Part shown: one piece after another, positions 2,259-42,946 of the stretch
Position numbering within the stretch: the first letter of the stretch is position 1
Layout of the letters: the number at the start of each line of letters is the position of its first letter
From: Theobroma cacao
Lineage: Eukaryota > Streptophyta > Magnoliopsida > Malvales > Malvaceae
Length of the DNA stretch: 64,000 nt
Direction: 5' to 3'
NCBI RefSeq assembly: GCF_000208745.1
Contig: NC_030852.1
Location: 9,632,529 to 9,696,528 of the forward strand
Notes under the pieces: model-generated
Seen by the model: only the letters and a program-made list of their open reading frames with translations
Databases searched by the model: none
Told to the model about the DNA's origin: nothing
Made by a program: the position numbers and the translations under genes

Positions 2259-2259
2259 A

Positions 2260-7461: not shown

Positions 7462-8440
7462 AATAGAATTGATCCCCAAATTCATGTCAACGTTGGGTCG
7501 TTAATCCCACTCTAGGATCTTATTTTATCCCTTCCTCTATAAGGAATTTTGGTTTATCCACCTTGTTTACCTTCCATTCGATTAGAATACTTCATTTATG
7601 TCTATTATCACCTTTTAAAATCAAGTTGGGGGTACCTTCCACAATCATTATCACTTATTATTAAAATGCCAAGCATGCCTTTATCTCCATCGTTAACTTT
7701 GAAACATAACTCCCTCTCAATCAAGCCAATTTCGATCACATGTTATATTTATGTATACCTAATCACCATTTTATTACTTCATTCATTTCATCTCTATACC
7801 ATATTTGGTAGCTTACAACATCATAAACATGCCATATTCATTCCTATACGTATTCTCAACGTTGGGGGAAAATTAATGCCTTCAATTGTTCGCACATACT
7901 TCATGTTTATCTTGCACTTATGCAACTCCAATCTTCTCCATCTTTTCGTTAATTACATGTCTGAAGATTCACACTTCTATATCATTTTTAATTTAATACC
8001 GTTCAAATTATGTAGAAAGGCAATTCACTTGTCAAGCTTTATCTTTAATGTAATTCTTTCATTCGCCATTAAACTCTTTTCAGTAGTTCTAGTCCCTTTA
8101 TGCTTAAAAATATATTATCCTTACTATGACTTAGAACTTTTTGACCATCTTTGACGAAATTAAATTTTATCTTTCTTACTCAATCCCTTCATCTACTCAA
8201 ATTATAATACTAGCACCATTTATTCTTTATCCATCGCATTATTGCCACACACAAAATTAAGCATAATTAAGAAATAGCATTTCATTTATTCATGCAACTC
8301 AATCATATCATTCCATCTTAAATATTATTCCGGAGTTCTCTCTATATTCACATAGCTGAATTTCTAATGGTATATCTTATTATTGTACCACTAATGCAAC
8401 TCATCAAGCATATTATGTTCAATTCTCAAATCGCTAAAAA
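7462..8440 (-). other. Element 2 interior, 3' part: no recognisable coding sequence
   Basis: This is AT-rich sequence where integrase and chromodomain should lie. I find no integrase motif or chromodomain tail on the minus strand. The 201-residue plus-strand open stretch at 7549-8154 is antisense, of low-complexity composition and unlike any family I know. Confidence 0.6.
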
Positions 8441-11400
8441 TAATTCTATATTCCCACTGATGACATGAGTAACTACACATGTACATATATACATCCATTA
8501 AATATCAACATCCATTACCACATGTAAGAACCCCTTTTTACTTTCCTCAATTTTGTCGTTTCCAATTTATCCTTCTGTTTCATTTCCATAGATCATAGTT
8601 AGTCCACGAACATCAAAATATAATCAGTTCCCAAAGTACTCTTTGGACATTTAAGTTATCATTCAACTTGCATTCTACCATATTTCATCCTTTATATAGT
8701 CCATATGAACTCGCATTATACTGATGCACGACTCTACATATGTACAAACTTAAGCTTTTCTCTTATCATTTCCAACCATATACATGAATTTCAGTATACT
8801 ATGTATCATTGTATCATAGTGTCATTATCCACATCTCAATCACTAAATATTGTTTTTATCCAATTATATTTCGGTATCCATGTATGCTTTACAATCTTAT
8901 TGACCCTTCAGGTTCATTTTTGCTAGATCACTACATCTTATGCAATATCACAATCCCTAAAAGTCACCTTCATTTCTCATTTACCTTCTGTACTTCCATT
9001 GTACATGTCCTTTTTCATTTTGATATTAGTTAATCACTTAAAATTTAGATTCGTCGAGGTCATGTACACTTCTTACATTTTGAATACTAATTTCCCACAT
9101 TAGGAAATTTTCATTAACCAACTTCATTATCGGGATTACCTTCGATCATCTTATACTATTCCTTTATACCAATATATCATTACTTTCCCTTTAGCGTCAG
9201 CACAGTCAACTCTGATATTTATAAAACTTAATATAGATTTTACCTAAGTGTCCCTTGACATCATCGCCAATATCTAATTTCAACCTCACATCGTGCGACC
9301 TTATAACTTATGCTTTAACCATTAAGCTCCTTAACAATTCCAAGTTTCACATTTCCTTATCATGTATATAAAATATTTTAAAGTATTATTAACCATTATT
9401 CTTGACACTTGCAGTTTAGTCTATTCGTTTCAAGACTTTTATACATTTCCAATCACTCAGTTACTTATTTACTCTTTAATCCTTCAAACACCTTCAGTTC
9501 AAAAGCATGCACTTATTCTCTAAGATATTTTAATGTGTCCTCATCCATTCATACCTCTATTTATGTTCTTAGGTTTCTAGTACACCACAAAATTGACCTT
9601 GTCTTATTACTAATCTCTTTTCTTCCAACTATATCAAATAAGATTGCAAATCCTTCTAACAATACGGTAAATTAGCTCATTTGTTATGCCAACCTTATAA
9701 TTCTTCATTCCCCATTTCCTCACTTGGTATTGGCAGTTCTTTATTTCTTAAAATTCATCTTTAATTAACTTAATGTTCCTCTCAATTTTTTACATCGTAG
9801 TTTATCCCAAAGACTTTTCATCTTCCTTTTTCTTACATGCCATGATATCTAAAACAATGAAGAAACCTTTTGGTTCAAGTAATATTCTCCAAATCATTTA
9901 AACCTCCACATAATAATGTTTAGTACCAAGGTTAACGAATTGATTTCAGCTTGTAATTTATTCCCACACTTCCACATTTTACTCATGCGTCTAGTACTTG
10001 AGATGTTCCTAGCGCTGTGGCACCGAATAGTTGGTGTTGCAACAGTGCAACTGCTAGAAATTTCTTCCACAAGGAAATTCTCCTACCTTTAAGACTACTA
10101 CATTAGTCACATGCTCTAGGTCTAGTCAATAACTTTAATTTTATGTTGTCTCATAGCACTTGTGATCAATCAAACAAGTCTCACTTAAAGATACCCTTTC
10201 CATATGGTATGACAAATTTTCAATTCCATATTACCACACATATTTATTCATCCATTCTAGCATCCACAATTCCTTTAACATTCGTTACTGATTATTTTCC
10301 TTTTCTTGCAACTCACATAGTCTAGTCACTTCAACTTAAAATTGTCATGAAATTAATCCATCTGGATCAACACCTTATGTTTACCTTATTATTAATTCAG
10401 GAATTTCATCTTTCCCTACTTCCATATTTACTTCAAATAGTGTATTTCTAAGTCAATTATCACCATATAGTATCACGACACTATGTGCCTCCTTTCCACT
10501 ATCTTTCATACCCCACAGGAATTAATTAAAAGATTTATGTACTTTGACTAATGCTAATTCCCTTCAACCATATCTTAAATACTCCAAACTCACAAATTAC
10601 AACTCCAAGTGTATACTCACATATTGATAACCTTCATCTATTTCATGATCATGAAAACTACAATTTACAAACTAACTTTCTATCGTACGCACGTTATCAG
10701 AACATTAATTTCAACATATCTATTTCACCCCTTTTTGTGGTATGCCAAAATCGTCGTTTAGGCATATTTCACTACTAGCAATCATATTCCTTTACTATAA
10801 CATCTAGTCCAAATTTGATTAAGCAATTGTCTCCAAATAACTCTTAAATACATAAATATCAAATCGTACACCACTTAATGTTAAGATCTTAACTTTACTC
10901 GTCGATCCTTAACCAATCACATCTATAAAGTGAATAATTTACTTAATTATTACACCTCACCCTTGCGGTCATAAGATCAAAGTTGTCCAAAACTTAGGAT
11001 GCAAAAGCTCCGTCTTAAAGCATATCCAAAAATCAATATTTTTTAAGTCCCTTACCTTTGAAGAAATCAAATTCAAGACTAATCATTTGCACCATAGTTT
11101 GCATACTAATCGAATTAGACTCCTAAATTGATCCTTTAAAGTGATTTGTATATCAAGCTCAAATTTAGAACTCCATATGGTATTTAGACTAGAATCAATT
11201 TTCTTGAGCCATTTAACTTTAAACTACCACATTCACCGCTAGTCCTTTAATTCATTGGCTTCGTACTAAGCATAGCAAAATTTAAGCTCATCCTTAGAGC
11301 ATATTTACTTACTAACCTTTTACTTCTTGACCACACATCAATTATAATAGTCACTGATTTCCACCCTTGAGCTAATTCATGCACTTACAACTATAACCCA

Positions 11401-11980
11401 TAATAGTTCAAATCAAACCTTGGGATCTCACCGTCACTTAATTGAATTCAAAACCAGCTCCATTTAAGCTGCTATACACATATTTAACACATGTACATTT
11501 ATAAAATATTTCGAAAGTTCAACACCATTCATATATGGGTAGGGCAAGCTTAATTAACACAGTGCACTTGCCTCCGTGCATGTGAGTATCAGTTTACACC
11601 TCTCTTAATACTTAGATGTATAAGCCTCAAGTGAATCTCAACGATCAATATTTATTCCAATAAAGATGCACTCCTTATTACCAATATCACATGGGCTCCT
11701 TTACATTGACCTTAATAACCATTAAATATTGTCTAATTTCTCCCCATTAATAATCCTGTGCTCAATTTATAACTCCACCAAATGCATAAGTTATTTTGGA
11801 CCTATTAGTCTAACTCCACTTTCCTTCATCCTTGGTCGAAGGATTACATCATTACAGTGCCCGTTCATTAGGAGCATTTGCTTTAAAATCTTTCCAACAA
11901 TAGCTCATGTCACGGGTGGCATCTCAAGCTCAAACAACAGCACCACTTATAACCTTTACATGACGATAGCAAAAAGGTAG
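8440..11980 (-). other. Shared non-coding module (copy in element 2)
   Basis: This non-coding stretch aligns with 41082-42946 in element 4 (same strand) and with about 20900-22680 in element 3 (opposite strand). Examples seen by eye: 8701-8930 matches 41330-41550, 9361-9450 matches 41980-42070, 10850-10930 matches 42510-42600 and the reverse complement of about 21960-22070, and 11241-11310 matches 42880-42946. The segment 11721-11980 matches the reverse complement of about 20930-21170. It holds no conserved reading frame. It may be a decayed pol or a structural non-coding core; I cannot tell which. Confidence 0.75.
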
Positions 11981-12116
11981 ATTACTAGGAATAAGAGTTT
12001 ATATAGCCTCCTGTCTATGACTTGTGCTGCAATCACAAACCATAAACAAGACTCTACATTAACTCCGACAACTCCGCTGATTGACACAAAAATCCTTAGG
12101 ACTCGACTAAACCTAA

Positions 12117-12129
12117 GGCTTTGATACCA
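12117..12129 (-). other. Primer-binding site of element 2 (initiator Met-tRNA type)
   Basis: The minus strand reads TGGTATCAAAGCC four bases after the 5' LTR. This is the plant consensus TGGTATCAGAGCC with one change. Confidence 0.85.
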
Positions 12130-13129
12130 ACATTGTAGCAACCCTTTCTCGTCGCTACCAGCATTCGAGACCTCCGAGAAGACCCGCCAAGTCCAGAACA
12201 AGCCTAACTTGAAATGTCTGTTAGATCACTACATACAATCACCATCCCATATTAATAACTAAAACAATATACTTTCATAACATGAATGGGAAACATAAAC
12301 ATGCTAATCAATTCAAGCTTCAAACCATTTAGTCATAAATTTATACATTAAAATTCGCAATCTCTAATTATTTACTTATACCGTTATCAATAGTTGTTTA
12401 CAACTCAATGAACGAAGAGCTACTAATTGACCTCTAACAGTGGAGCGACTTGGAAGGAAATGCTAGGAGATGCCTTTACCTATCCATATGGACTGAACAC
12501 GTCGATGATTACATGCTAGGTCGATCCCTATCTACAAAAAGGGGAAATAAGGGGGTGTGAGTCTCACAGACTAAATGATCATCGGCTCCGTGAGCAGGGC
12601 ATAGATGGGAAACAAGCAATAAGGTAGAGATTTTGAATATTAAAAATCACAAGAGTCGATAAAAATATTTTAATCCAAATGGAGATTTGTGACTTATATA
12701 AAGAAAATAATATCGAGAATTTCTTGTAAGGCGTAAACAACTATAATGTATATCAAATCAAGTAAGTAAACTTTTGTGCATCGAGAAGGTTAATATCCAC
12801 TTTCAAACTAAATCAGTAAAATATCATTTTAAACCTCGTGTTCGTAAAAGATCTCCGCAGTCAAAATTATCTCATGTAATACTCAAATCAAATCAATAAA
12901 GTTGGGCAAGCACCCGCGAAACCAAATAGTAACCAGGTTTATACAATATTCACAAATCGCCTCACACGCGAGGGTAAAAATTCATATAACAGTAAAACCA
13001 GGGGAAGCTGCAGAAAATCGTATAATTTTGTTTTCACCATGCAACAAATAAGAGTTTAAAAACCCAAAGAGATTTTTGTCTCGAGTAGGAAATCAAATAA
13101 AATTCGTGGTCCCGCTACCACGTAATAAC

Positions 13130-15659
13130 TATCACGACCCGATTTCCAAGCCGTGACCGGTGCATGGACTTAATGGACGTAGTCCATTAAGCCCTAGCAA
13201 ACCTATCTATATTATCCTGCTCATTATTCCATCAAAGTTACTAAAGTCACATTTTGTAATTTCGAACCAAAATAATGCTAACCATTTCCGACTCGTAGTG
13301 ACATACCAATCCAAATATACATACATTGTCTAAAATATGTCTTAACAATTTACATCAGGTTTGACCATACATATAAAAAAGTAGACTCGATTTCCAGCGG
13401 AGAGACTCAGACAAATGTACAGCTACTGAATGCCGAGACACCTACCAAGGGTCGAATATACGAAGACACCTCGACCTATTTACTAGCTGCCTCTTGATTT
13501 GAAAACATGAAGTTGAAACCGATGAGAATAAACCCAGTGAGTGAACATATGAAGAGAACAAGCAATATAATAAGGAAAAGTTTGAAATCATAATGCACTT
13601 ATTTGAAAACGATGCACTTTAGCTTAAGTCCTTATTAAAACCCTCAATTGAACCCTTGGTTGATAAATCATGTGACGATAGAGAATTCATATCCAACATG
13701 AAATTAGAGAAGTGGAAAATATGGCAAAAACCAGCCAAATGATAAACGGAACAGAAAGTTTCATTCTCGCTACAGCGAGAAATAGAGCAACAAGAAAGAC
13801 TTCCTTTCATCCCAAATAAACCATTTCACTGCAATGCAAATCAATTTGGATCACAAAAAAAATTCTCAAGGTTCAGCTAGCAGGATTCCACATACATTAT
13901 AGTCACACACGTTATTCATAAAATCTTTATTGCATTAATACATGTGAACATATGCAAACATATATGTATATATATACATCCATCGCCTCCCCAGCTCAAG
14001 AACATCCCCCCACATCGTGCACATAGCTGAAGTCATCGTGTGCATGCCCCCACATCGTGCATATCTAATGCTGTCGTGTACATCCCCCCACATTGTGCAC
14101 ACGAGCAATATCATCATCTGCCTACCTCACCACCGTCATCACCAGTATGTGCATCCCCCCACATGTGCACACACACAGTTATATCCATTACACAATATTA
14201 TTAACCAATGTACTATACATATATATATATCAACATTATACCGAAACACATGCGTTCATCACACTTTCCATTTCACAACATAAAGACATTTCATAAGGGC
14301 TTGTTCCCAAGCACTTTTTTTTTTTTGAAAGAGAATTGGATAAATCATTCAAAATATTTGTCCAAATACATTCACATATCCCAAAACAGTTTTGAAATAC
14401 AAGTTCACTCACCTGTCTTTGTTGATTTTTAAAGCAGCTCCAACTTCCACTAATGCCCCGAATGGTGATGTGGGGTTTCAGTGGAGCCTATCACACATTA
14501 GCATCACAATCAACTCAATCACATAACCAAAATTCTAAAAGCAATCTCCTAAATCATGTTCAACTGGTTATTCCTAACTAGCTTCCAACTACCATCAAAT
14601 GGCTATTTATTTGCACTATTATAATCACACCAAAATGAATAAACCGCCTCAACTACAAAACACTCATAAATCTAACTATTAATCAATCTCAACAACTAAA
14701 ATATCAAATCAATTTCAATGCTCACCTTGCTAGATTTACAATTGAATATCCCTTCAAGAATTCCCAACTATTATAGAAGGTCTTTCTTTCTCTCTCTAAA
14801 ACCCTAATTAGTGAGAGAAAGTATTGATCTAAGACATTTCAAGGGTTTTAAGGTGAAAGAGTGAAAGAGCATAAGAGGTTCTATAAAAAAAATGCACAAA
14901 AGCATGAAAATGAAGGCTAACTTGAGAGAGTTATGGAAGCTTGAAGAGTACTCCCATGGAAGGTGAAGAAATGTGGGATGGGAGGAAGAACAAGAAGACC
15001 AAGTGCTCGAAATTTAAGGAAGGTGCTGGAGAATAAAGATATTTATAGTTAAAACTTATCCAATTATTCATAAAATTACAATAATGTCCTTAGCAATGCC
15101 ACTTGTCTTCCTCTTGTTCTTGTGAAATCGTTTACTCTTTTGACACTACGGAAAGGTCCAAAATCCTTTGAAAGAGGTCCCTTAAGTAGCCCCCAAAAGT
15201 CATAGCTTCAAAAACCCAAAAATCTTGTTATTTGTAGAATTTATGATGAGGGTCGCGGCTCTCAATTTCCAGCGTTGCGGTGCTCAAACATTCTACCAAT
15301 TTCGGTTCTTTTGGCACAAACCTTTCACTTCGACAAAGATTTTGACCACATTCTCTCTAGAATTGGGAAAAGTGGTAAACATAAAAGTTGTAGCCCTACC
15401 TCTTAGCTTTCTAATGGTTAAAAATCATGTTATTTGAACTTCTGTAGTGGGAGATATACTTAAAAAACTAAAATATATGCAAATAGGGCTACTGTTCATT
15501 ATGCACCTTTCTTCACCAATTAAAATTATTTTTCATCTTACTCCTAGAACGACATAAAATAATTATAAGTAACGTAAAACTAGCATCATTAGCCCAAATT
15601 AAACCTTTAAACATAAGTTCCACCTTGAGTTACGCGCCTATGAAGGTAGAGGTTTCACA
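13130..15659 (-). mobile_element. Solo LTR of a third gypsy family (2530 bp)
   Basis: It is flanked by ATAAC on both sides (13125-13129 and 15660-15664). The interrupted LTR resumes immediately after it. Read on the minus strand the insert starts TGTGAAACC and ends GGGTCGTGATA, a TG...CA LTR with one terminal mutation. It has no primer site, polypurine tract or coding sequence inside, so it is a solo LTR left by recombination between two LTRs. It contains a C-rich minisatellite at about 14001-14175. Confidence 0.88.
14001..14175. repeat. Minisatellite with CATCCCCCCACATCGTGCAC-type unit
   Basis: Four imperfect copies of a unit of about 41 bp or a multiple, with cores near 14003, 14045, 14083 and 14151. 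Each has a run of five or six C followed by CACAT and GTGCAC or GTGCAT. The surrounding LTR is far less C-rich. Confidence 0.75.
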
Positions 15660-17647
15660 ATAACCTCCGAAAGCCTCGCTCCACCAGATCCCACATGCCA
15701 TGGTAGTCTCAACGATGTTGGCCGACATTAGAGAATCAAGCAGTTGCAACCACGTAATCATCTGATGGCCTAGCCACGCATACATATAGCACAGGTCGTG
15801 GCTCCCGCCACGCCTAATTGCCCATCGAATACCCAAGGGTTCTCTAGCTAGAGCTCACTCGTGCACGAGGGTCACAGTTAACCGAAGTGACAGTCGACCT
15901 ACTCTCAAATCTCTCTGTTTGTAAAACCATTTTTGAAATTTTGTTATGTCTTTAAAAGCTCGTCTCAAAATTATTTCCAAAGCATTCAACACAGGGTATG
16001 ATAAAATCTATTATCATTTTCATAAAATAAAGTTGGTGCATGAATTTCAAAACAATAACTCGCATGGTGAATAAGCATTATAATCATGAATGCACACTGC
16101 ACAAATATATAAGGCACATTTTTTATATAAATCATCTTGAAAATCTTGTTTCTCGATTTAAAATACTTTACGTATAATTTATACATATATATTCAAAACA
16201 CATTTGAAAATCATGGCAATCACAAATTTCCTAGAAATCTACCAACTCATGCTTTCCACAATTTTTCATATAAAATAAATCACACGTACAAATATATATA
16301 TATATATATAGGAATAATTACAAAAATTTTAAAATTGACACCCCCTACTCACCTCGAAATAGCGGGATACTACGTCGCTATTTTTGCTTGTCAATGGCTC
16401 GTTATTTCGTTCAGCACTCCCGTACAACTCACTTCCTTTACCTTTGCATTTTCTTTTCTTCCTTGTTTTTCTCTCTTTTTCTTACTCTTTTGGACCTATC
16501 CTTCCTTGGGCCCTTCTCATGGGCTCTTTCCACTTATCCTCATTGGGCTATGCCTACTTTTTCTTTTCTTATTTTTCTTTTTACTTTTTTTTTTCCTTTC
16601 TTTCCCGTTTCTCTCTCTCTCTTCTGCTTCTATTCTTTCTTACCATATTTGCAGCCACCATCATTCATTTTTCCCTCTCAACGTCGATCACATTTTCCTT
16701 CTTTCTTTCTCACCACCGGTAGCACCCTAAAAACCCAGCTTCCTCTTTTTTCCTTCCTCAAAATCCAGCAGCACAAAGCCTCATTTTTCCTCCTTAAATT
16801 GGCAGCAAATCAGCCCCTTTCCTCTCTTAAAATCAGCTCCTTTCTCCATTTTATTTGCTCCATAAGTGGCTATTGGCAGCAGCATGAGGAAATAAAATTT
16901 GCTCTTTCTCACCAACTCTCTCTCTCCTTCCCGTTTTGTCTCCTCAAAGTCTAGCGCTTCTCCCTTTTTCTTGTTATTCTTTCCAGCCGTCCTTATCCAT
17001 TTTGTACTTGTCAACTATATTTATTTATTTTTTATTTTTTATACTTGGCCAGCCTCCCACTATCATTTCCTCTTCGTTTATTATTCCTTAAATGGTCAGC
17101 CCCTACTAACTCAATTCATCACTTAAAATATATTTTTTTAAGTTATTCATTTGCCACATGGGCGGCTGCCCACTCCACCTTTGTTCCATTTTTTTTCTTT
17201 ATTTTTCCTTTCTTTTTCTCCCATATGGTCAAAGTCAAGTCAAAAGGCCTTGCTTCATTTTCCACTTGTCCTACCCTTTCATTATTCATCTTTTCTTTAT
17301 TCATTTCATTTTATTTATTTATTCATTTATTGTTATTATTATTAGTAATATTTTAATATTATTTTATTAAATAAAATATTATTTTTTCAAAATTTTCTAC
17401 TTGTCTCCTTTAGTCTCGAAATGTATTATTATGTCCTGTTTCACTTCCAAATCACCTTTTAACGTGTTAATTCATCCCTAACAAAAATATTATTATTTAA
17501 TTATTATTTTCACATGTGCTAAATATTTTACTTTGGAGCATTCCTTTACTCTTTTATCACTCTTTAGCACATAAACTTGCATCAATTATTCCTTTGTCTT
17601 ACTGAGACAGTTATGTTAACTACTATACGAGGGTACGGGGTGTTACA

Positions 17648-17733: not shown

Positions 17734-18334
17734 TGTAAAGCCTGACCTTATAAAATATTTGTCATGACATACATATGATGGATAGCATTTTTGCATGCTA
17801 AGAGAGTCCCGAAGAATTTACAAAAGTCAGTATTGTACCTAGAGGTACAACAAAGTTGATTTAAGTCTCGAACTAGATCAAATAGGGATTTTAGGGTGAA
17901 ATTGAAAATTTTAAAGTCCTAGAATGACTTAGAATGGTGATTCGGGGTTCGAGGATCAATTCGGAGTCAAACCAAAAATTTCACTATCTAGGGGCAAAAT
18001 GGTAATTTTGCCACTCAAGGACAAAATGGGAAATTTTTTGAAGAATTTTGATCATATATGACTTATTGGAGTATGATTTGAGGTTGAGAAGTGAAAATTT
18101 TGTAATCTTGGTATTTTTCGGAGCATAGGGGTAAAAGAGTAATTTTGCCACCCTAGGGGCAAAATTGTAATTTTACACACCCAACACTTGTCCAGCACAT
18201 GGATTTTACCCAATATTATCAAGAATAATTGAAGGAATTTATATGGTGGAGAGAGAAAGCTTAATAGTTAAGAAATAAAAATGGACTAACGAAATGGTGA
18301 CACATGGCATATTTATAACCATTAACTATTTGGC

Positions 18335-18343
18335 TTATAAATT
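18335..18343 (+). promoter_or_regulatory. Candidate LTR promoter TATA box (element 3 5' LTR)
   Basis: TTATAAATT lies about 600 bp into the LTR. It is kept in the 3' LTR at 25589-25597 and, as TATAAATTA, in the solo LTR near 38530. The short leader ATGGCCGGCCAA starts about 30 bases downstream. This is consistent with the U3/R border; the transcription start is inferred. Confidence 0.6.
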
Positions 18344-18486
18344 AACACAAATCAGCCCATTTTCTCTTCATATGGCCGGCCAAACCAAGAACAAAGGAAG
18401 AACAAAGGGAGAAAAGAAAAACAAGAACCGTAAGTGGAAAAATTCAAGGAAAAATTGGTGGATTTCAAGGAATCAAGCAATCAAAG

Positions 18487-20073
18487 GTAAAATTTCTTGA
18501 TTTTGACTTGTGATCTACCTTTCCCATGCATTTCTCCTTATTTTCCATGGTTAGATTTCATGTTTTCATGGTGAATTCATGGCTGGTCAAAATGGGTATG
18601 GAGAGAGAAAGATGTTAGATTTATTTGATTTTTAAGTTATGTTAGTGTTTTTAGTCAGTTTAGCATATTTAGAAACAAAACAACAAGAAAAGAATTCATT
18701 TTTCCCATCAACCATCAATGGTCGTGTTTCCTAGGGAGGATATTGTGGCCGAAATTGATGAAATTTCATGATATTTGATGTTTGGTGAGGCTAGAAATTA
18801 AATGGAAAATTTTGGTGTGAAAATTCGAATTTTTACCTCATGTATAGACATGTGTGATTATTGACCCAGGATTGATAAATTGAATCTCATTCACAGTCAC
18901 TGAGGTAATTTAGGTATAATTGGAGTGTAGAAAGTGAAAGAAATTGAGTTGGAGTTAAATTGGAGGTTTTAGCCAATTACATCGAGAATAGTGCGAATTA
19001 GGTTGAATACCGTATTTAAACGGTTATTCGGACATTTTGCATCACATTTCGTGCATTCATATAGATTTATAGAGCCTAAAATAGTTTATGATAAATTGAA
19101 ACAATTTATTGAAATTCATGTCACGTATGATGTATAGGTGGTGAGCCCTCTAACAAGGGTAAAGAGATTGTGCCCGAAGACTGGGAATAGGAGTATATCG
19201 AACTCCTAGTACTGTGAGTAACCTTACTATCATTTTAATTATCTAAAGTATGTTTTTAATCGATTTTGGTGAAATTTTATGAAAATGAGTTTAAATGGTA
19301 AATCTTTGTGTTTTACAAACAAAATGCGTTTACATGAAAAGATTTTATAAATTGTCTTGAAATTGAATAATGATTTTGAAAAATAGAGTAATTAGAGACC
19401 ACTTGTTATATTGTAAATTTATGATTTGAAATCGAATGGCTTATGACAATATTTGCATGAATGGCTGAATAGATATTTGTGTTGAAATATATGAATTATA
19501 TATTTAGCCTTGAAGGGCTGTGAATTACGATAATTGCCATATCATGTTACTGAATTTTATTGTATGGTGGGTTTAGCTTGCTGCAGTACGCGAGTTTTCG
19601 TGGACTAGCCTATTAGAGGGGCACGGTAAACCCCATTATATTTTACCTCGGTTGGAGAAGCGAGTAGGGTAACTCTCGAGGTATAACTTTTAGAGTTCAC
19701 TTCACGCTAAACCACCACGTGAGGGGGAACTCGACCAACGCCAAGGAATGGCTATGTTTTCAAAATAAAACATGACTTTCTAATAGCCTTAGTGGACTCA
19801 GTTGGGATAGCTCTCGGTCAAGGTATCCTAGATAACTGAGTATGATAATAATTTTTAGCATGAGCCAAGCTTTTAAGAAATTCATAAGCCATATTGATTA
19901 CTTGATTTAAATAAATTGATTTCATTTGGTTGAAATAAGTTGAAAAGTGATAAATTACAATTTGATGAAATGTTTTAATAGTCTCCTTTTACTTGACTTT
20001 AGATATTTTGAATGATGTTTGTTTACTCACTGGGATTTTATAATCTCACCACCGTCCTTTCCACCCATTTCAG
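18487..20073 (+). other. Candidate intron inside family B LTR
   Basis: The donor AAAG|GTAAAATTT at 18487 recurs in all six complete copies of this LTR (25741, 38669 and 59424 on plus; 35908 and 45987 on minus). Near the LTR end a pyrimidine tract ending in TTTCAG or TTTTAG (20072-20073) recurs at the matching places (about 27335, 40275 and 61004), with a TACTCAC branch-like sequence about 35-45 bases upstream. These are splice signals by pattern only; there is no transcript evidence. Confidence 0.4.
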
Positions 20074-20695: not shown

Positions 20696-20707
20696 TGGTA
20701 TCAGAGC
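20696..20707 (+). other. Primer-binding site of element 3
   Basis: TGGTATCAGAGC, an exact plant initiator-Met-tRNA primer site, seven bases after the 5' LTR. Confidence 0.92.
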
Positions 20708-22665: not shown

Positions 22666-22667
22666 TA

Positions 22668-24835: not shown

Positions 24836-24838
24836 ATC

Positions 24839-28398: not shown

Positions 28399-28402
28399 AC
28401 TT

Positions 28403-33666: not shown

Positions 33667-36658
33667 TGTCACAACTTGGTACTCTCTTTAAGCCTGTGAC
33701 ATCTGCCGCGATGTCACGATAGACATTCATTACCCGGAATGTCAACCGAAACCTTGCAAGGCTCTCGCATCAGTTTTACATATCCCCTATGAGCAATAGT
33801 TACTAAATATCATGTTTTAAGGGAATATAAACTATTTTTAAATCAAAACAAACAAAAAAATAATTTCTGCCACACAAGGGTATTTTGGCCATTTTTACCT
33901 GAAAATTTTGAAACATGGTAAAAATATGATATATGAGTAATAAGCATCCATTTCATGTCTAAAAATAAGTTTCGTTGTCTAATTCATCAATTTAAAGTGA
34001 AATTATAGCTATTCAAATTAAACAAAAATATTAAATACAATATTCCATTTTCATATAAAACAAAATTTATAAAACTCTGTGTAAATAATTTTTATAGCTT
34101 AAAAGTAAAATAAATTCATACATATGCAGCCAGGTATACAAAATATTCTACAATGACATATAGGCCCCCAAAATAAACATATATGTACAAGACTATAGAC
34201 CTGCGATTTCTAAGGGTGCAAACCCAAAAGCAAACCCTCGATATAATCAGTGGTCTACAGACTGCCCTGAGCCTGAAATGGGTGAAAAGAAGGGGTGAGT
34301 TTTTATAAACCCAGTGAGTAAACAAACATCATCTAAAATATCTAAAGCCGAGTAAATGTAGACAACTTAAAATAGTTCATCGTACTATGATTCATAAAGT
34401 TTCAAACTCATTTCAACTAAATAAAATAATTTCATTTCACTCAAATAATCAACATGGCTTATGAATTTCTTAAAAATTTGGCTCCTGCCAAAACTCATTC
34501 TCGAGGATACCTTGGCCGAGGCATCCTACCGAGTCCGCTAAGGCTGTTAAAGAAAAGTTATATACGCTTAAAACACATTTTTACATTTAAAAGCATAGTC
34601 GTTCCTTGGCGTTGGCTGAGTTCACCCTCAAGTGGTGGTTTAGCGTGTAGTGAACTCTAAAACTTTACCTCAGGAGATACCTTCCGTGCCTCTCGTATCG
34701 AGGTAAAATATAACCGGGTTTACCGTGCCCCTCTCTAATAGGCTGGTCCACAGAAACCCACCACTGCAATGACTAATCAATATCCTACCAAATCAATAAA
34801 AGTTTCGACAGCATGACATGGCAATTATATTACAACCCAGCTTGTTAAGGCAAAACAAACAGTTTATACAATTTCAACACAATTTCCAATTTAGCCATTC
34901 ATTCCAATATCACCATAAGCCATTCAATTCAAATCATAAATTTACAACACAATCAAATAGTCTCCAATTACTCAATTTCTAAAATCATTATTCAATTTCA
35001 AAATGATTTATAAAACTCATTTCATTTAATCACATTTTACTTATAAAACATAAGGATTTACCATTTAAACTCATTTTTCTATAAAATCACAAAAATGAAT
35101 AAAAACTACTTTAGATAATTAAGATGATAATAAGGTTACTCACAATATCGGGAGTCGAAATACTCCTAGTCCCGATCTTCGGGTACAATCTCCTTACCTT
35201 TATCGGAAGTTTCATCACCTAAACATAATGCACAACAAGCAATTTACTATATTTGTACTAAATCGTTATAAAACTAATTTAGGCTCTATATGAATGCATG
35301 AAATGGGATGCGAAATGTTGGATTATTATCTAAATATGGTGTTCTACGTAGCTTCAATTATGCATCGAAATAAAATGGTATTGGCCTAATTTGATCTATA
35401 CACCGGTTAATTGGCCAATACATCCAATTCAACTCCAATTAACTTGATTCCACTTCCAACACTCCAAGTCATCATTATAAGTTAAATAATATGTAATATC
35501 ACAAAAATCCATCATCAATATCTTCCTTGTAAAATTCGGCCATTGAAGGTTTAGTGTAGAACATGTAATTTTCATGCTTGATTTTTACACCTTACATCAT
35601 AAAACAACTAAAAACACCTAAATAGCATGAAATTCATCAAAGTCCATTATCCAATTTCTCTCTTGAAAATTTCAGCCAAGGAGTGTGGGTGAAGGGCATG
35701 AAATTTCTTGCTTGTTTTTCATGCTAAACATCACCAAACAACTAAAAACACTAAGATACCTTGAAATCTAACCAAATAAATCATCAAATCTTCTCTCCCT
35801 AAATTCGGTCAGCCATGAATCCTTCATGAGATCTTGAATTTTAACCATGGTAATTGAAAAAGAATGCATAGGAAAGGTAGATCACAAGCTAGAATTAAGA
35901 AATTTTACCTTTACTTGCTTAATTCCTTGAAATCCAATGAATTTTCTCTTGATTTTCTTCTCTAGGGTTTGTTCTATGCTTTTTCCCTTTTGTTCTTGCC
36001 TTGGCCGACCAAAAGAAATGAGATGGGAGAGTTTTAGTTGTGTTTATAAAGGAAAATATAATAATATTAAAGCTTGACACTTGTCACCATGTAATTGGTC
36101 CATGCATAAAACTTAATAATTAAGCATTTCTTCTCCACCACATAAAATCCCTCAATTATCCAAAGTATAAAATGAATTTCATGGGTTTGACAAGTGTCAA
36201 GGTGGTGTAAAATTCCAAAAATTCTAATTACGTCCTTATGGACACGTGAAATGACCTTTTTGCCCTTATGTTCGAAAAATTGTCGGAGTTAAAAATTTTC
36301 ATTTCTCAAGCTCAAATTATGTTCCAAATAGTCAAACTTGATCAAAATTTCATCCACCATCCCAAATTTGCCCTCGGGTGGAAAAATGACCATTTTACCC
36401 CTACGTTATGAAAATTCCAATTTAACTCAAAATCAATCCCCGAACTTCGAATCACCATATTAAGTCATTGTAAGATTTAATAACTCTCAATTGCATCTTA
36501 AAATCTTTATTTGAACTAGTTCGAGGCTTAAATCAACTTAGTTGTACCACTAAGTACACTACCGTCTTTTAATGATTTTTTCGAGGTATTCAAGTATGTA
36601 AACATGTTGTCAAATACATGAATGACATGGCAAGTATATTATAGAGTAGGGCTTGACA
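33667..36658 (-). repeat. 3' LTR of element 4 (family B, 2992 bp)
   Basis: On the minus strand it starts TGTCAAGCCC and ends GTTGTGACA. It is nearly identical to 43757-46737 and is the same family as the LTRs of element 3. The splice-donor-like AAAGGTAAAATTT is at about 35900-35912 (minus). Confidence 0.93.
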
Positions 36659-36672: not shown

Positions 36673-36714
36673 AAAATAAAATTTTGACCTCAAAATTTCA
36701 CTTACCGGACTCGG

Positions 36715-37113
36715 AGAAAAGATGCAGGTATTGGTTTCTCATATGGTGCTCAACTTCCCACGTCATCTCCTCTATCTGAGCATTTTTCCACAACACCTTA
36801 ACCATTGGAATGTTTTTATTCCTCAACACTTGATTCTTTCGATCTAGAATACGTGCAGGTTACACCTCGAACTTCAAATCTTCTTGCAACTCAATCGGAG
36901 GTGTCTCGAGGATATGGGAGGGATCGGTACATACTTCTTCAACATTGAGACGTGGAAGACATTGTGAATCCGATCCAACTCTGGGGGTAACTCTAGTCTA
37001 TATGCCACTAGCCCAATCCTTTCAATAATACGAAAGGGTCCAATGTATCTTGGATTAAGGTTTCTTTGCCTTGCAAACCTGATCACATCTTTCATTATCC
37101 AACAAGATACCAT
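36715..37113 (-). pseudogene. Element 4 pol: integrase C-terminus and chromodomain
   Basis: The minus strand reads LNPRYIGPFRIIERIGLVAY, RLELPPELDRIHNVFHVSML, then, after a stop near 36873, VLRNKNIPMVKVLWKNAQIE, EMTWEVEHHMRNQYLHLFSE. The first open part is 36874-37113. The chromodomain tail is kept, and its sequence is very close to the remnant in element 3. Confidence 0.87.
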
Positions 37114-37919
37114 AATTTACTACAATAATATAATCAAATAAGACTTAATACCTCAAAGTATTCAAATCATTGCCTTTCCAAGGAGAAACCTTAAGAAAAA
37201 CTCTATCATCAACTTTAAATTCCAAATCTTTTCTCTGTCTATCCGAGTAACTTTTCTACCTATCTTGAGCTATCTTTAATCGCTCTCGGATAACCTTGAT
37301 CTTGTCATTAGTCAGATCAATCAGTTCTACATTAAACAATTTTCTCTCACCCACTTCATCCTAGTAGAGTGGAGTTTAGCACTTTCTCCAATACAGAGCC
37401 TTGTATGGCGCCATCCCAATACTAGATTGTTATTATACGTGAACTCCACGAATGGCAAGTGTCTATCCCAACTCCTAGTAAAGTCAATGACATAAGCCCG
37501 TAACATATCCTCCAAAGTCTAAATGGTCTTTTCAGATTATCCATCTGTTTATGGATGAAAGGCATGCTAAACCTCAAATTAGTTCCGAGAGCCTCTTAGA
37601 ATTTTGGCCAAAATTGAGAAGTGAATCGGGGGTCTCGATCTGACACGATAGAAACTGGGACTGCATGTAATCTCACTATTTCATCTATTTAAAGTCTAGC
37701 CAGTCTCTCAATGGAATACGTGCTATAAATAGCCAAGAAATGGGTGAACTTAGTCAATCTACCCACAATCACCCAAATCATCATTCTCACACTACGTCCA
37801 TGGTAAATCCAATACAAAGTCCATAGTCACGTGTTCCCACTTCCATTTCGGAATAGGTAAAGGCTAAAGAGTACCCCGATGGTTTCTGATGTTCCGCCTT
37901 GATCTGTTGGCATGTGAGA
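37114..37919 (-). pseudogene. Element 4 pol: integrase core (broken)
   Basis: The minus strand includes CLTCQQIKAEHQKPSG (zinc-binding Cys pair) near the solo LTR, then core fragments and, in 37327-37515, [20 protein letters not shown] followed by FVEFTYNNN. These match the Ty3/gypsy integrase around and after the catalytic Glu. Many stops and frame changes are present. The open stretch at 37787-37987 takes its first 22 residues from the inserted solo LTR. Confidence 0.78.
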
Positions 37920-37924
37920 CATTT

Positions 37925-40893
37925 TGTCAAGCCCGACCTTATAAAGTACTTGCCATGTCCTTCATGTGATCGACAATATGCTTGCATACTTGGAAAGCCT
38001 CGAAAAAAATCGCCAAAAGTCGATATTGTACCAAATGGAACTATTAAGTTGAATTAAGCCTCGAACTAGTCTGAATAGAGATCTTAAGATGAAATTGAGA
38101 ATTTTAAAACCCCAAAATGACTTAAAATGATGATTTGGAGTTTGAGGGCTGAATTGGAGTCACTTTGGAACTTTCATGTTCTAGGGGTAAAATGGTAATT
38201 TTGTCACCTGAGGATAAAATGAGAATTTTTAGAAAAGATTTTGATCACATTTGACTCATTGGAGTATGATTTGAGTTTTAGAGGTGAAAATTTTTAATTT
38301 CGGCATTTTTTCGAGCATATGGGCAAAATAGTCACTTTACCGCCCAAAGGCAAAATCATAATTTTACACTACCCAACACTTGTCCAGCACATGAATTTTA
38401 CCCAATATTTTCATGGATAATTGAGGAAATTTAAGTGGTAGAGAAAGATTGCTTAATGGCTAAGTATGACACATGGACCAATGGAATGGTGGCATGTGTC
38501 AAAATCTCATCCATTTATTATTTTCATTATAAATTAGCACAAAATCAGCCCATTTCTCACCCATATGGCCGGCCAAAGCATGAAGTGAAGAGGAAAGGAA
38601 AGAACACAAACCCTAGGCGAGAAAATTGAAGAAAAAGTGTGGGATTTCAAGGGATTAAGCTAATAAAGGTAAAATTTTGTGATTTTGTCTTGTGATTTAC
38701 ACTACCCATGCTTTCTTTTTCATTTTCCATGCTTAGAACTCAAGTTTTCATGATGAACCCATGCTGGCCGAATTTGAGAGGAGAGGTTTTGAGCATTGAT
38801 TTTGCTAGAGTTCAAGCTAATTAAGTGTTTTTGGTTGTTTGGTAATGGAAAGTATGAAAATTTAGTAAGGAATCACTTTGTTCTTCACAAACCCACAAGA
38901 GGTCAAATTTTCTAGAGAGGATACTGAGGCTGAAATTGATGATATTTCATGATATTTTGGTGGTATTTAATGATTGGTGAGGCTAGAAATTTAGTGAAAA
39001 ATTTTGGCATGAAAATCTGAATTTTTACCTAATGTATAGACATGTGCGATTTACGGTCTGGATTGATAAATTGAATCATATTCACAGTCATTGAGGTATT
39101 TTAAGTATAATTGGAGTGTAGAAAGTGAAAGAAATCGATTTGGAGTTAAGTTGGAGGTTTTAGCCAATTACATCGAGAATAGTGCGAATTAGGTCAAATA
39201 CCGTATTTAAATGGCTATTCGGACATTTTGCATCACATTTCGTGCATTCATATAGATTTATAAAGCCTGAAATAGTTTATAATAAATTGACACAATTTAT
39301 TGAAATTCGTGTCACGTATGATGTATAGGTGGTGAGCCCTCTAACAAGGGTAAAGAGATTGTGCCCGAAGATCGAGAATAGGAGTATATCGAACTCCTAG
39401 TACTGTGAGTAACCTTACTATCGTCGTAATTATCTAAAGTATATTTTATCCGATTTTGTGAATTTTATGAAAAATGAATTAAATGATTAATTTTTCGATT
39501 TTATAAACAAAATGTGATTTAGTGAAATGATTTCATAAAATTGTTTTAAAATTAAATAATGGCTTTTCAAATAAAGTAATTGGAGACCATTTGATGTATT
39601 GTGAATTTATGGTTCTAATTGATTGGCTTATGACAATATTGGCATGAATGGCTGAATTGGTATTTGTGTTGAAATGTATAAACTGTTGTTTGCCTTGATA
39701 GGCTAGATAATGATAAAATTGCCATGTCATACTGTTACAAATTTTATTGTATGGTGGGTTTAGCTTGCTGCAGTGGGCTAGTTTTGTGGACTAACCTATT
39801 AGAGGGGCACGAAACCTAGTCATATTCTTACCTCGGTTAGAGAGGCGAGTAGGGTAACTCCCGAGGTATAACTTTTAGAGTTCACTTCATGCCAAACCAC
39901 CACGTGAGGGCGAACTCAGCTAACGCTAAGGAACGACTATATTTTCAAAATAAAAAAACATGATTTATGAGTACATAACTTTTTAATAGCCTTGGCGGAC
40001 TCGGTTTGGGATAGCCCGCGGCCAAGGTATCTTTGATAACTGGGTATGAGAATGATTTTGGCACGAGTCAAAGTTTTAAGAAATTCATAAGCCATGTTAA
40101 TTACTCAATTTATATGAATTGATTTTATTTGGTTGAAACAAGTTGAAAGGTGATGAATTTCAGTATGTTAAACTATTTTATCTATCTCCATTTACTCGAC
40201 TTTAGATGGTTTAGATGGTATCTGTTTACTCACTGGGATTTTATAATCTCACCACCCTCCTTTTCAACCATTTTAGGCCCACGGTAGCCTGTGGATAGCA
40301 GATATTGTCAAAGATTATAGTTGGCTTTATTACTCCAAAAACTGTAAGTTTACTACCTTTGTGCACTTTTGTTCCTTGTGGGCCCACAAGTCACTGTAAA
40401 GTAAATTTCATATCCCAGTTATCTGCATTATAGTACGTATGAATTTATTTAGCTTTTACATTACAAAAATTATTTACCGATGACTCTATAAATATTGTTT
40501 TACAAGAAATTAGAATATTTTATTGAATATTTTTATTTTATTCAAATAGTTGCAATATCATTTTTAATAAATGTTTTAGACCCCCAAAATTATTTTAAAT
40601 AATGTAATATGGGTTTTCCACTCATCTACTACATCTTTAGTCGGGGTTTAGAAAATTTTGAGGAAAAATGACGAAAACGCCCCTATAAGGTGAAAATTAT
40701 TTTTCCATGGTTTTGAAATGGAAAAAGCTTAAAATTCTTTAAAAACGAGGTTTGGCGATGATTACTCATAGGGGAGATGAAAAAAAATGGTACTAAAGCC
40801 TTGCGGGGTTTCGGTTGGCATTTCGGGTAACAAATGTCTACCGGGATGTCGCAATGGTTGTCACGGGCTCAAGGGGAGTACCGGGTCGTGACA
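37925..40893 (+). mobile_element. Solo LTR of family B in element 4 integrase (2969 bp)
   Basis: It starts TGTCAAGCCC, ends GGTCGTGACA, and is flanked by CATTT at 37920-37924 and 40894-40898. The integrase reading continues directly across it. It carries the same TATA, donor (38669) and acceptor (about 40275) signals as the LTRs of element 3. There is no internal region, so it is a solo LTR. Confidence 0.93.
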
Positions 40894-40898
40894 CATTT

Positions 40899-41035
40899 CG
40901 CTACAAACTCGACTATATCTCATTTCATACCCGGCCACCAGTAACTTTTATCATCGTATCATCTATACAACTCATTAAACACGTCGAATTCAAAACTCAC
41001 GTTACCATGAATAATTCTTCACTTTAGTTGATCAC
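40899..41035 (-). pseudogene. Element 4 pol: integrase N-terminal (HHCC) fragment
   Basis: The minus strand reads IIHGNVSFEFDVFNELYR, a stop, then YDKSYWWPGMK, a stop, and DIVEFVAK. This is the start of the integrase zinc-binding domain (the YWWPGMK motif is diagnostic). It joins to CLTCQQIK across the solo LTR. On its upstream side, coding ends exactly at the palindrome 41036-41081. Confidence 0.82.
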
Positions 41036-41081
41036 ATAATCATCTCCATATATATATATATATATATATGGAGATGATTAT
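41036..41081. repeat. Perfect 46-bp palindrome with (TA)10 centre
   Basis: The left arm ATAATCATCTCCA (41036-41048) is the exact reverse complement of the right arm TGGAGATGATTAT (41069-41081), around a 20-bp TA run. It can form a cruciform or hairpin. It lies at the junction between integrase coding sequence and the non-coding module. Confidence 0.95.
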
Positions 41082-42946
41082 CCATCACTATCGGTAAGGA
41101 CCCTCGTCAACTATGTTCGAACCAAATTCCCTCTATTCATTCTAATCCATAACTAAAGTTCAATATCATATTCTCATAACACATGTTTCCCCTTTTTACT
41201 TTTCTATTTGATTCCCATAGGTCAAGTTTAATCCATGAATATTAGGGTATAATCAACTCCAAATTACCTTTTTGGATGTTTGAGTTACCATTTAATTAAC
41301 ATCCTACAATCAATTATTTCTTATGTAATCCATACGGATTCTCATTGTGCCTATGCATAACTTCACATAATTTACATGCTTATACTATTTTCTTATCATT
41401 TCCAATCCTATGTATAAGCTCCATTATACCACGCATCCTTGCATCACAATGTCATTAACCACATTTCAATCATAGATATCATTTTCATCCAATGACAATC
41501 GGGTATCCACATATGCTTTGCAATCTTATTGATCCTTCAGAGGTTTTCTTTAATTCATCCTCGTATCTTATGCAATAGCACAATTCCTAAAAGTCATCTT
41601 CGTTTCTCATTTACCTTGTACCCTTCCATCATACACGTCCTTATTCATTTCCATATTAGTTAGTCATTTAAGATTTAAATTCATTGAAGTCATGTGCACT
41701 TCTTACATTTGAATACTATTTTCCCACATTAGGAAATTTTTATTAACCAACTTTATAATCAGGATTACCTTCAATTATCTTGTACTATTCCTTTACACCA
41801 ATATACCCATACATTATCTTTAGCGTCTGCACAATCAACTATGATATTTACAAACTTAATATAGATTTTACTGAGGTATCCATCGACATCATCACCAATA
41901 TCTAATTTCAACCTCACATGACCTCATAACTTATGCTTTAACCATTAAGCTCCTTAACAATTCCAAGTTCCACATTTCCTTATCATATATATAAAATATT
42001 TTAAAGCACTACTAACCATTATTCTTGACACTTGCAGTTCGGTCTATTCATTTCAAAACTCTTATACATTGCCAATATATAAGTCAACAAAGAAACTTTC
42101 CAATTCATTCATATCTATACCTTTCAAAACCTTAAAACTCCAATTAACGAAGCTTAACATCAAGTCCAATGACCTTAATTCAACTCGTAAGTTCAACTTC
42201 CTGTCTTTCACCTCTTATTCCTACGTCCCAGATATGAGGTGTTTCTACTACTGCGGCACGGTGGCTGCTTAAGTTTACTTAATCAACGTTATTCGTCTAA
42301 ATTTAAGGTTACTATATTAATCATCCTCAACTGTTTGGTTTTCCTCCAAGCTTACGTCACAATTTTCATAACCATTATATTCTCTTGTGCTTATCACATA
42401 TAATAGACTAAGCCAACATTTTCAAATTCATCTCATTCTTTAACACTTGTCAACATCCATTACCACAAGTAAGAATCCCTTCTTACTTTCCTCAATTTCG
42501 ACATATCTCAAATTGTACACCACTTATCGTCGAGATCTTGACTTTACTCTCCAGTTTTTAACCAATTACATTTATAAAATGAATAATTTACTTAATTATT
42601 ACATCTCGCCTTTACGGTCATAAGATCAAAGTTTCTTAAGCTTAGGATGCAGAAACTTCCTCTTAAAGCATATTCGAAAATCAACATTTTCTAAATCCGT
42701 TACCTTTGAAGAAATCAAATTTAAGACCAATCATTTGCACCATAGTTTGCATACTAATCCAAGTAGACTTTTAAATTGATCCTTAAAATAATTTGTATAT
42801 CAAGGTCCAATATAAATCTCCATATGGCATTTAGACTAGAATCAACATTTTCAAATCATTTAATTTCAAACTACTAAATCCATATTTAGTCCTTTAATCC
42901 TTTGGCTCTACACTAAGCATAGCAAAATTCAAGCTCATCCTTAGAG
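41082..42946 (-). other. Shared non-coding module (copy in element 4, replaces RT and RNase H)
   Basis: It aligns with parts of 8440-11310 in element 2 and with the reverse complement of parts of element 3. In element 4 it sits where RT and RNase H should be, between integrase and protease. No RT motif can be read in it. The internal order differs slightly from element 2: the match to about 8511-8560 occurs both near 41190 and near 42455. Confidence 0.78.

Follow-up and report, generated by a model that had tools for sequence, protein, structure and literature searches.

A window of 64,000 nucleotides from the Theobroma cacao genome, which is the whole stretch analysed here, raises the question of how one and the same non-coding stretch can lie inside LTR retrotransposons with different terminal repeats. 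Elements 2, 3 and 4 of the window (Table 1) are insertions, each with a 5-bp target duplication (ATCCA, TAATT and ATATT, respectively), and each possesses the two LTRs, PBS and polypurine tract of an LTR retrotransposon. The explanation that we consider probable is that they are non-autonomous, trans-mobilised Ty3/gypsy elements resembling large retrotransposon derivatives (LARDs), in which template switching has combined an old non-coding core with various LTRs and coding flanks.

Elements 2 and 3 are inserted in element 1, which also served as the positive control in RT detection. Because two insertions split the 5' LTR of element 2, its interior is delimited as 7449-12133. The 5' LTR of element 3 begins with TGTAAAGCC and not with TGTCAAGCC, as the initial annotation had it. 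Over ttggtatcagagc, the PBS-like tracts of elements 1, 2, 3 and 4 show no more than a single-base difference. The pol remnant of element 3 has 72% amino acid identity with the best full-span relative; a weak PR-like fragment (61 bp, 77%) is seen in the same element at 24521.

Table 1. Retrotransposon features of the window (positions in the 64,000-nucleotide stretch)
Feature	Position	Strand	Remarks
Element 1, family A	250..4824	-	decayed, recognisable gag-PR-RT-INT
Element 2 3' LTR, family A	4941..7448	-	pairs with 5' LTR; TSD ATCCA
Element 2 interior	7449..12133	-	no Pfam domain in three sense frames
Module block M4, element 2	8558..9508	-	common to element 4
Module block M1+M2, element 2	10767..12014	-	common to element 3; part 10843-11304 also to element 4
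Element 2 5' LTR, family A	12134..17647	-	pieces 12134-12553, 13046-13129, 15673-17647 (alignment)
Element 3 5' LTR, family B	17734..20688	+	TSD TAATT
Element 3 PBS-like tract ttggtatcagagc	20695..20707	+	directly after 5' LTR (sequence)
Module block M1+M2, element 3	20902..22144	+	common to element 2; 21598-22052 also to element 4
Module block M3, element 3	22317..22666	+	common to element 4
Element 3 pol C-terminus remnant	24827..24943	+	39 codons (tblastn)
Element 3 3' LTR, family B	24988..27949	+	p 0.054 to 5' LTR
Element 4 3' LTR, family B	33667..36658	-	TSD ATATT
Element 4 integrase C-terminal part	36677..37920	-	SH3 (PF24626) and chromodomain-like end; broken frames
Solo LTR B nested in element 4 integrase region	37925..40893	+	TSD CATTT
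Element 4 integrase start (H2C2 region)	40887..41033	-	
Element 4 non-coding module	41036..42945	-	M2 42505-42951, M3 42102-42450, M4 41185-42133
Element 4 protease ORF, 184 aa	42971..43525	-	RVP_2, E 1e-28
Element 4 5' LTR, family B	43757..46737	-	

The interiors of elements 2, 3 and 4 have non-coding blocks in common, with 74-84% identity and in the same relative orientation. Self-comparison pairs element 2 with element 4 at 8558-9453 and 41185-42076 (80%) and at 10856-11299 and 42505-42946 (84%), element 2 with element 3 at 10767-12012 and 22144-20904 (75%), and element 3 with element 4 at 21606-22052 and 42951-42508 (77%) and at 22317-22666 and 42450-42102 (83%). The best local scores between interiors were 759, 665 and 300 bits, against maxima of 54, 49.5 and 40.8 bits in 50 dinucleotide shuffles each. 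Element 2 matches element 3 only weakly over 9509-10766 (55%, 70 bits), its matches to element 4 over 8572-8370 are likewise weak (63-66%, 65-67 bits), and the remaining matches of 55-60% identity, which at 31-55 bits are near the shuffle level, were left out of the count. The proposal in the initial annotation of homologous, non-coding interiors therefore stands as to orientation and identity and, in elements 2 and 3, as to the absence of coding sequence, but the similarity is blockwise and not continuous, and element 4 has protease and integrase parts. A perfect 46-bp hairpin (41036-41081) was observed in element 4 only, most other aligned copies having a TA repeat.

The LTRs placed over this common core (family A in element 2, family B in elements 3 and 4) are unrelated, with scores close to those of shuffled sequences: 39.6 bits between elements 2 and 3 (shuffle maximum 34.4) and 38.7 bits between elements 2 and 4 (maximum 42.2), the best match, 57% over 261 bp, amounting at most to trace similarity. 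In the block common to all three elements, element 2 agrees with element 4 against element 3 at 59 sites and element 3 with element 4 against element 2 at 32, so that the nearer relative of element 4 is element 2 and not element 3, even though it is with element 3 that element 4 has LTR B in common. The genome search for further copies found the module under LTRs of both kinds: the 12 more distant copies comprise six with a family A LTR, two with a B-like LTR and four with none in reach. Both this distribution and the site pattern agree with recombination between families, one of the two possibilities raised in the initial annotation, as the likely source of the arrangement.

Element 4 has the protease (PR) upstream and the integrase (INT) with a chromodomain-like end downstream of the module, and gag and RT/RNase H (RH) are absent; as protease and integrase are kept, the module occupies the RT/RNase H place. 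The SH3 domain of its integrase (SH3_Tf2-1) was found at E 3e-23, whereas the Chromo match is weak (E 0.0017, under the Pfam cut-off). Twenty element-4-type copies were fetched from T. cacao and searched with five full-length queries at E<=1e-3, a procedure that detected the control element 1: PR is present in all of them, INT in 19, and RT/RH and gag in none, and the 5'-side LTR is of family B throughout. The join between PR and module has an identical position in the 18 copies aligning there and is gone in two (L020, L023). Element 4 belongs to a semi-coding family, with the order LTR, PR, non-coding module, INT with chromodomain-like end, LTR, and its protease ORF and integrase parts, together with the PR and INT of the sister copies, keep it from being classed as a LARD. 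Elements 2 and 3 do behave as LARDs, their interiors having no coding capacity apart from the 39-codon pol end of element 3. The element 4 PR is 82% identical, at 98% query coverage, to that of the RT-bearing T. cacao protein P0002, and the pooled PR pN/pS among element-4-type copies, 0.50, falls within the values of module control frames (0.48-0.72), so that a working PR in them is at most putative. Element 4 may be a member of the Tekay/Del clade of Ty3/gypsy chromoviruses.

Module, LTR and coding flanks form a mosaic. Distances in the LTR correlate with those in the module and INT at -0.38 to 0.20, while the LTR-PR correlation of 0.57 counts against the preferred explanation. Compared with the other copies, element 4 has a PR that differs at 0.39 of the synonymous and 0.09 of the non-synonymous sites, yet a module that matches theirs. 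Only three of the best 40 places for the element 3 module, element 3 included, have an LTR among the best 40 places for the element 3 LTR. Element-3-type and element-4-type copies are fully separate in the LTR tree (one label change, at least six in shuffles), hence no recent LTR exchange is seen between them, and site incompatibility is high throughout, in the module too, so that part of it may reflect recurrent mutation.

The reading under which elements 2, 3 and 4 inserted with a common pol that has since decayed can be given almost no credence, even though a decayed gag-pol lies next to them in element 1. Summed over three frames, 68 of 98 stops of element 2 in M4 are common to element 4 and 78 of 115 in M1+M2 to element 3; mismatches are spread evenly across codon phases, and none of the 9 and none of the 12 indels in two block comparisons has a length that is a multiple of three. 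The initial annotation had argued that plain decay would leave RT traces, and simulation bears this out: RT stretches with 12.5% of sites changed were detected in 20 of 20 cases at 139 bits or more, whereas with the same 12 queries the actual element 2 interior reaches at most 21.2 bits and the element 4 module 21.6. The translated pol search that it had called for returned no RT from either, as tblastn of the element 2 interior against 78 plant pol proteins gave nothing at E<=1e-3 (best 0.027) and comparison of the element 4 module with the proteins of 78 relatives nothing under E 0.08. Pfam identified no domain in the sense frames of the module regions and no match in the antisense stretches 8440-9510, 20900-22666 and 41000-42945 (which do not cover 10767-12014 of element 2). 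PR and INT are still recognisable on either side of the module in element 4, and RT is missing from all 20 sister copies. Plain decay since the common ancestor of the copies is refuted; the module was already non-coding before that ancestor. Two other candidates were rejected. An antisense gene in element 2 would consist of a 203-codon run (ORF 7549-8154) that Pfam does not recognise and that none of the shared blocks includes; the longest antisense run was reached by 3 of 300 shuffles for element 2, 91 of 300 for element 3 and 93 of 300 for the element 4 module. Hypermutation, that is, strand-biased loss of C from the C-poor module, is at odds with the polarised changes in the three-way block (35 G>A, 17 C>T), which fit a G frequency about twice that of C and hence no recent strand bias.

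A much older decay is a different matter. The module might be an ancient RT/RNase H fossil, in its original place, that became unrecognisable before elements 2, 3 and 4 split, an origin that we regard as somewhat unlikely, yet worth serious attention. It would account for the location of the element 4 module between PR (FSIDL) and INT (YWWPGM), for a gag-like start, ATGCCACCC, close to the 5' edge in elements 2 and 3, and for the weak resemblance (63%, 67 bits) of 8533-8370 in element 2 to the element 4 integrase start; moreover, with 0.4 changes per site simulated RT scores under 35 bits in 8 of 20 cases, with 0.5 in 18 and with 0.6 in all 20. The interval from FSIDL to YWWPGM, about 2.0 kb in element 4, can be set beside the 541 codons (1.6 kb) of five of the 13 relatives that have both motifs in order (range 234-541), but the module's length is unlike the PR-INT interval of the relatives. 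The fossil reading also has to face the empty protein and Pfam searches and M1, which precedes M2 in elements 2 and 3 and has no counterpart above 60% in element 4. It concerns the origin of the module and is compatible with the preferred explanation.

Divergence provides a further line of evidence. The module has diverged least of all parts of the element-4-type copies, and its excess divergence over insertion age is -1.1 to +0.5%, against 2.9% for PR, 4.4% for INT and 5.2 and 10.6% for the LTR, a contrast that is favoured by the selection of the copies on module similarity, which lowers module divergence relative to the flanks. Insertion age hence accounts for all of the module divergence, with an older extra in LTR, PR and INT. 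These ages come from the 12 of the 20 copies with a usable LTR pair and from element 4; L009 and L019, whose repeats are seemingly mosaic or spurious, and six copies with no LTR pair in the stretch were left out. Element-3-type copies have LTR tiles at 0.09-0.23 and M2 tiles at 0.025-0.042, whereas the difference is mild in family-A copies (module 0.154, tail 0.179-0.190, LTR 0.204). A sharp step at the module's 5' edge separates only element 4 from the rest; among the other element-4-type copies divergence declines gradually across PR toward the module.

Such a pattern could also arise if selection kept the module because it acts in cis, as RNA or as DNA, and is usable by more than one LTR family, whether for packaging, for dimerisation, in regulation or as a non-coding RNA. 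We find this improbable. The low divergence of the module in both element-4-type and element-3-type copies is what it would lead one to expect, but recent common ancestry alone suffices for the near-zero excess, and family-A copies, an older group, have a module just mildly better conserved than their other parts. Elements 2 and 4 have 44 identical bases running in M4, a length reached by one of 500 shuffles (127 and 33 of 500 in LTR controls), and the lowest tile among the copies (42036-41917, 0.034) coincides with 97% identity between these elements; mismatch clustering is equally strong in LTR controls, and conserved motif islands were rejected on that ground with this run as the sole exception. 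The packaging or non-coding RNA role raised in the initial annotation is putative: in folding, M2, M3 and M4a do not surpass column-shuffled controls, and M4b, the last of the four parts tested, is borderline, as its fold beats 60 of 60 such controls (z -2.5) and its covariation score is attained in 9 of 500 shuffles, but its pairs contain 8 cells with double changes against 3 to 10 in slid structures. Rfam gave no match at the gathering threshold within the window, and the tRNA scan was likewise empty. Still a shade less probable is the bolder proposal of a cis-acting RNA element, transferable and under selection, which survived the loss of its coding sequence, replaced RT/RNase H in a PR-INT element and moves among families by template switching, admitting any holder LTR family to helper particles, so that the module would be the lasting unit of inheritance.

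Under the preferred explanation, reshuffling of an old core among trans-mobilised elements, coding relatives would supply proteins in trans and so propagate the module, and template switching between co-packaged RNAs may join it to different LTR families and coding flanks. That the module has diverged little within the families of elements 3 and 4 would most simply reflect a recent expansion from a single module sequence, the mark of which could persist if the module recombines only with other module carriers while LTR, PR and INT are exchanged with diverse relatives. Candidate sources of trans help are the window's family-A element 1, with its gag-pol, and the T. cacao gene models P0010 and P0006, which extend into family-B LTR sequence. 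The same non-coding stretch under differing end repeats points to an exchange of parts among these elements and to their dependence on enzyme-making relatives. The locus offers a natural example of plant retrotransposons whose LTRs, coding flanks and non-coding interior each have a history of their own, and a multi-copy family that lacks gag and RT/RH yet has protease and integrase. Within one genome it becomes testable what a non-autonomous element must retain for mobilisation, and whether the core of a LARD is maintained by selection as a signal or simply carried along.

Gaucho is a named cacao element; a literature search for it found no paper containing the terms, and among the matches listed no title or abstract start describes the present elements. 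Tekay and Del are chromovirus names or clades (PMC6317226, PMC4029996); element 4 resembles them in PR, in an integrase with SH3 and chromodomain-like end and in its long LTRs, but its lack of gag and RT/RH precludes an RT-based placement. LARDs have, according to PMC7215508, a non-coding conserved core, presumed help in trans and, typically, conserved RNA folding. Elements 2 and 3 share with them LTRs, target duplications, PBS, polypurine tract and a core without coding capacity; unlike in LARDs, the cacao core is found beneath LTRs of an unrelated family as well, and within a PR and INT element, and typical folding is not found in M2, M3 and M4a and is borderline in M4b. In einkorn, RLG_Quinta is the non-autonomous partner of RLG_Cereba, with some proteins and with internal recombination blocks that differ in divergence (PMC11302176). 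The element-4 family likewise has a partial protein set and blocks of unequal divergence, but Quinta retains GAG, and the available part of that paper describes no non-coding module crossing LTR families. Wheat RLG_Sabrina / RLG_WHAM with RLG_Wilma, and likewise the RLC_Angela sub-populations, are, according to PMC9744471, semi-autonomous elements without RT and INT in which unrelated sequence replaces interior stretches, and the conflict between their LTR and interior trees is ascribed to host switching via gene conversion or template switching. The cacao family is similarly semi-autonomous, with a replaced interior and disagreeing LTR and interior histories. Sabrina_SA retains GAG-protease, whereas the element-4 family has lost gag and retained PR and INT with its chromodomain-like end, and its RT/RH place, unlike in wheat, is taken by a module common to non-coding elements of another LTR family.

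The initial annotation held that three LTR retrotransposons of the window, elements 2, 3 and 4 (E2, E3, E4), carry homologous interiors under LTRs of different families, and this is borne out. In a self-comparison the interiors share blocks of 350–1,250 bp at 74–84% identity, equally oriented relative to each element; for each pair of interiors the best score exceeds the highest among 50 shuffles seven- to fourteenfold. Further parts are linked by weak 55–66% matches (65–70 bits), and matches of 31–55 bits, about the shuffle level, were left out of the count. The LTRs of families A and B show trace similarity at most (E2–E3, 39.6 bits, shuffle maximum 34.4; E2–E4, 38.7 bits, below the shuffle maximum of 42.2). 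We call the common interior the module. The window contains nested LTR elements, E2 and E3 being inserted, on the basis of their flanks, within element 1. Duplications of 9 bp are of the length usual for Mutator-type elements.

Features of the window, with observations on each
Feature	Position	Strand	Observations
Element 1, family A	250–4824 (pol matches)	minus	gag-pol decayed, still recognisable
E2, family A		minus	5-bp target duplication ATCCA; LTR-pair difference 8.7% of sites (2 kb compared)
Antisense open frame in E2	7549–8154	plus	201 aa, outside shared blocks; exceeds 297/300 shuffles; no Pfam match
Insertion, E2 5' LTR	12554–13045		9-bp near-duplication on both sides, AAATAAGGG / AAATAAGAG
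Insertion, E2 5' LTR	13130–15672		begins TATCACGACCCG; 38-bp tandem repeat at 14002–14101
E3, family B		plus	5-bp target duplication TAATT; LTR-pair difference 5.4% of sites
Segment of E3	24521–24581		61 bp like E4 protease coding sequence (77%), outside expected order
E4, family B		minus	5-bp target duplication ATATT; LTR-pair difference 4.8% of sites
Solo LTR B	37925–40893		own target duplication CATTT; within E4 integrase region
E4 module	41036–42945	minus	
Hairpin, module 3' edge	41036–41081		perfect, 46 bp, TA core; TA repeat instead in most other aligned copies
Copia-type RT	~48200–48900	minus	decayed (RVT_2, E 3e-19); SH3 domain match upstream
Direct duplication	50683–51187, 51210–51714		505 bp, 92.5% identity
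Inverted repeat	53022–53699, 53915–54575		~680 bp, 72% identity
Family-B LTR	58653–61626		without close partner in window; 70–78% identity to other family-B LTRs
Copia-type RT	61620–64000 (ORF 61910–62953)	minus	RVT_2, E 7.5e-68; open frame 347 aa

A module that was a recently decayed pol should, as had been argued beforehand, retain traces of reverse transcriptase (RT). Between E2 9508–8558 and E4 42133–41185, 68 of the 98 E2 stop codons (three frames) are common to both, as are 78 of 115 between E2 and E3; mismatches in both alignments show no preference for any codon position, no indel has a length divisible by three (0/9 and 0/12, respectively), and stop density in the sense frames is about that expected from composition. 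Pfam searches of translations with X at stops gave no match in E2 or E3, although the same procedure detected copia RT elsewhere in the window, even in a decayed copy. Those parts of the module that were scanned in antisense likewise had no Pfam match. All 20 simulated RT stretches with 12.5% of sites changed were recovered, with scores of at least 139 bits; the score dropped below 35 bits in 8/20 at 0.4 changes per site and 18/20 at 0.5; the same 12 queries scored at best 21.2 bits in E2 and 21.6 bits in the E4 module. In tblastn with the proteins of 78 relatives, the best match had E 0.027 in E2 and 0.084 in the E4 module. The common stops, even mismatches, non-triplet indels and RT simulations thus rule out recent decay, and the module was therefore non-coding already before its copies split. 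A much older pol origin is possible.

All three interiors had been described as non-coding, which stands for E2 and E3, but not for E4. The latter is a semi-coding element, with a protease (PR; RVP_2, E 1e-28) upstream of the module, SH3 and chromodomain-like parts of an integrase (INT) downstream, and no gag. Its PR and INT motifs, FSIDL and YWWPGM, are separated by ~2.0 kb of module; where relatives have the two motifs in this order (13 of them), the distance is 234–541 codons, five having 541. The best full-span relatives of its PR are T. cacao proteins at 77–82% identity. Among 20 fetched genome relatives of E4 (element-4-type copies), PR is found in 20 and INT in 19, with no RT/RNase H (RT/RH) or gag match in any. 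The PR–module join lies at the identical place in all 18 copies that align there; two copies have lost it.

These copies come from a host-genome search with the E4 module, in which 40 of 714 first-look candidates were scored (all 83–100%); of the 39 non-self places, the best 20 were taken as 10-kb stretches and the last 12 (83–87%) as 3-kb stretches, the seven between being left out. The module proved to occur under both LTR types: a family B LTR lies on the 5' side in all 20 closest copies, and in 6 of the 12 more distant ones a family A LTR starts directly after an element-2-like tail, three of these six showing the polypurine tract and TGTAACACC LTR start. Two of the 12 have a B-like LTR and four none within reach. 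In the module tree, 21 element-4-type sequences (E4 included) form a shallow, star-like group (median pairwise difference 0.056), and a second set of 13, including E2, is more diverse (0.174). Relatives of the E2 module have 77–87% identity at 39 other scored places (of 749 candidates), those of the E3 module 94–96% at 39 other full-length places (of 664).

The presence of A and B LTRs on module copies supports the recombination between families suggested initially, as does the grouping of sites: in the block common to all three elements, 59 sites group E2 with E4, 38 E2 with E3 and 32 E3 with E4, contrary to the LTR grouping. Along E4 the close relative is first both E2 and E3, then E3 alone, then E2 alone. 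Distances between copies in the LTR are uncorrelated or negatively correlated with those in the module or INT (−0.38 to 0.20); the correlation is 0.57 for LTR and PR, and 0.35–0.40 for adjacent module parts. The difference between the E4 PR and that of the remaining copies is 0.39 per synonymous site and 0.09 per non-synonymous site, which marks it as a coding lineage of its own attached to the module that all of them carry. Counting against recombination, PR among the other copies is under constraint no stronger than module control frames, and element-3-type and element-4-type LTRs stay separate in the LTR tree; LTR exchange between these two types is therefore not recent.

With 11 to 21 element-4-type sequences compared in each segment, median pairwise differences are 0.055–0.069 in the module, 0.09 in PR, 0.12 in INT and 0.13 and 0.16 in LTR parts, and a tile analysis confines low divergence to the module; at the PR edge, divergence changes in a step for E4 versus the rest and in a gradient among the remaining copies. 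Once the expectation from insertion age is subtracted, the module retains an excess of −1.1 to +0.5%, PR of 2.9%, INT of 4.4%, and LTR parts of 5.2 and 10.6%. Element-3-type copies (12 of 39) have LTR tiles at 0.09–0.23 and tiles of module block M2 at 0.025–0.042, M1 being intermediate, and only three of the 40 best E3-module places (E3 included) have their LTR among the 40 best E3-LTR places. The contrast is mild in the family-A set (seven sequences; module 0.154, tail 0.179–0.190, LTR 0.204). Since copies were chosen by their module, part of the module-versus-flank contrast is sample selection. We favour a passenger module that expanded recently while its flanks were shuffled over a selected signal, with which the data remain compatible. 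The lowest module tile among 19 copies, 42036–41917 (0.034), coincides with 97% E2–E4 identity, in an alignment whose 44-base identical run is equalled by 1/500 shuffles, and it may be a functional core. RNA folding tests were negative for blocks M2, M3 and M4a, with M4b a borderline case, and the window had no Rfam family match.

Wheat non-autonomous families with replaced interiors and conflicting LTR and interior trees (PMC9744471), partner elements with recombination (PMC11302176) and large retrotransposon derivatives with a non-coding core (LARDs; PMC7215508) have been described. Relative to these systems, as presented in the accessible portions of the three reports, the T. cacao case differs in its combination of features: one non-coding module lies under two unrelated LTR families, and is present also in a family with PR and INT, without gag and RT/RH.
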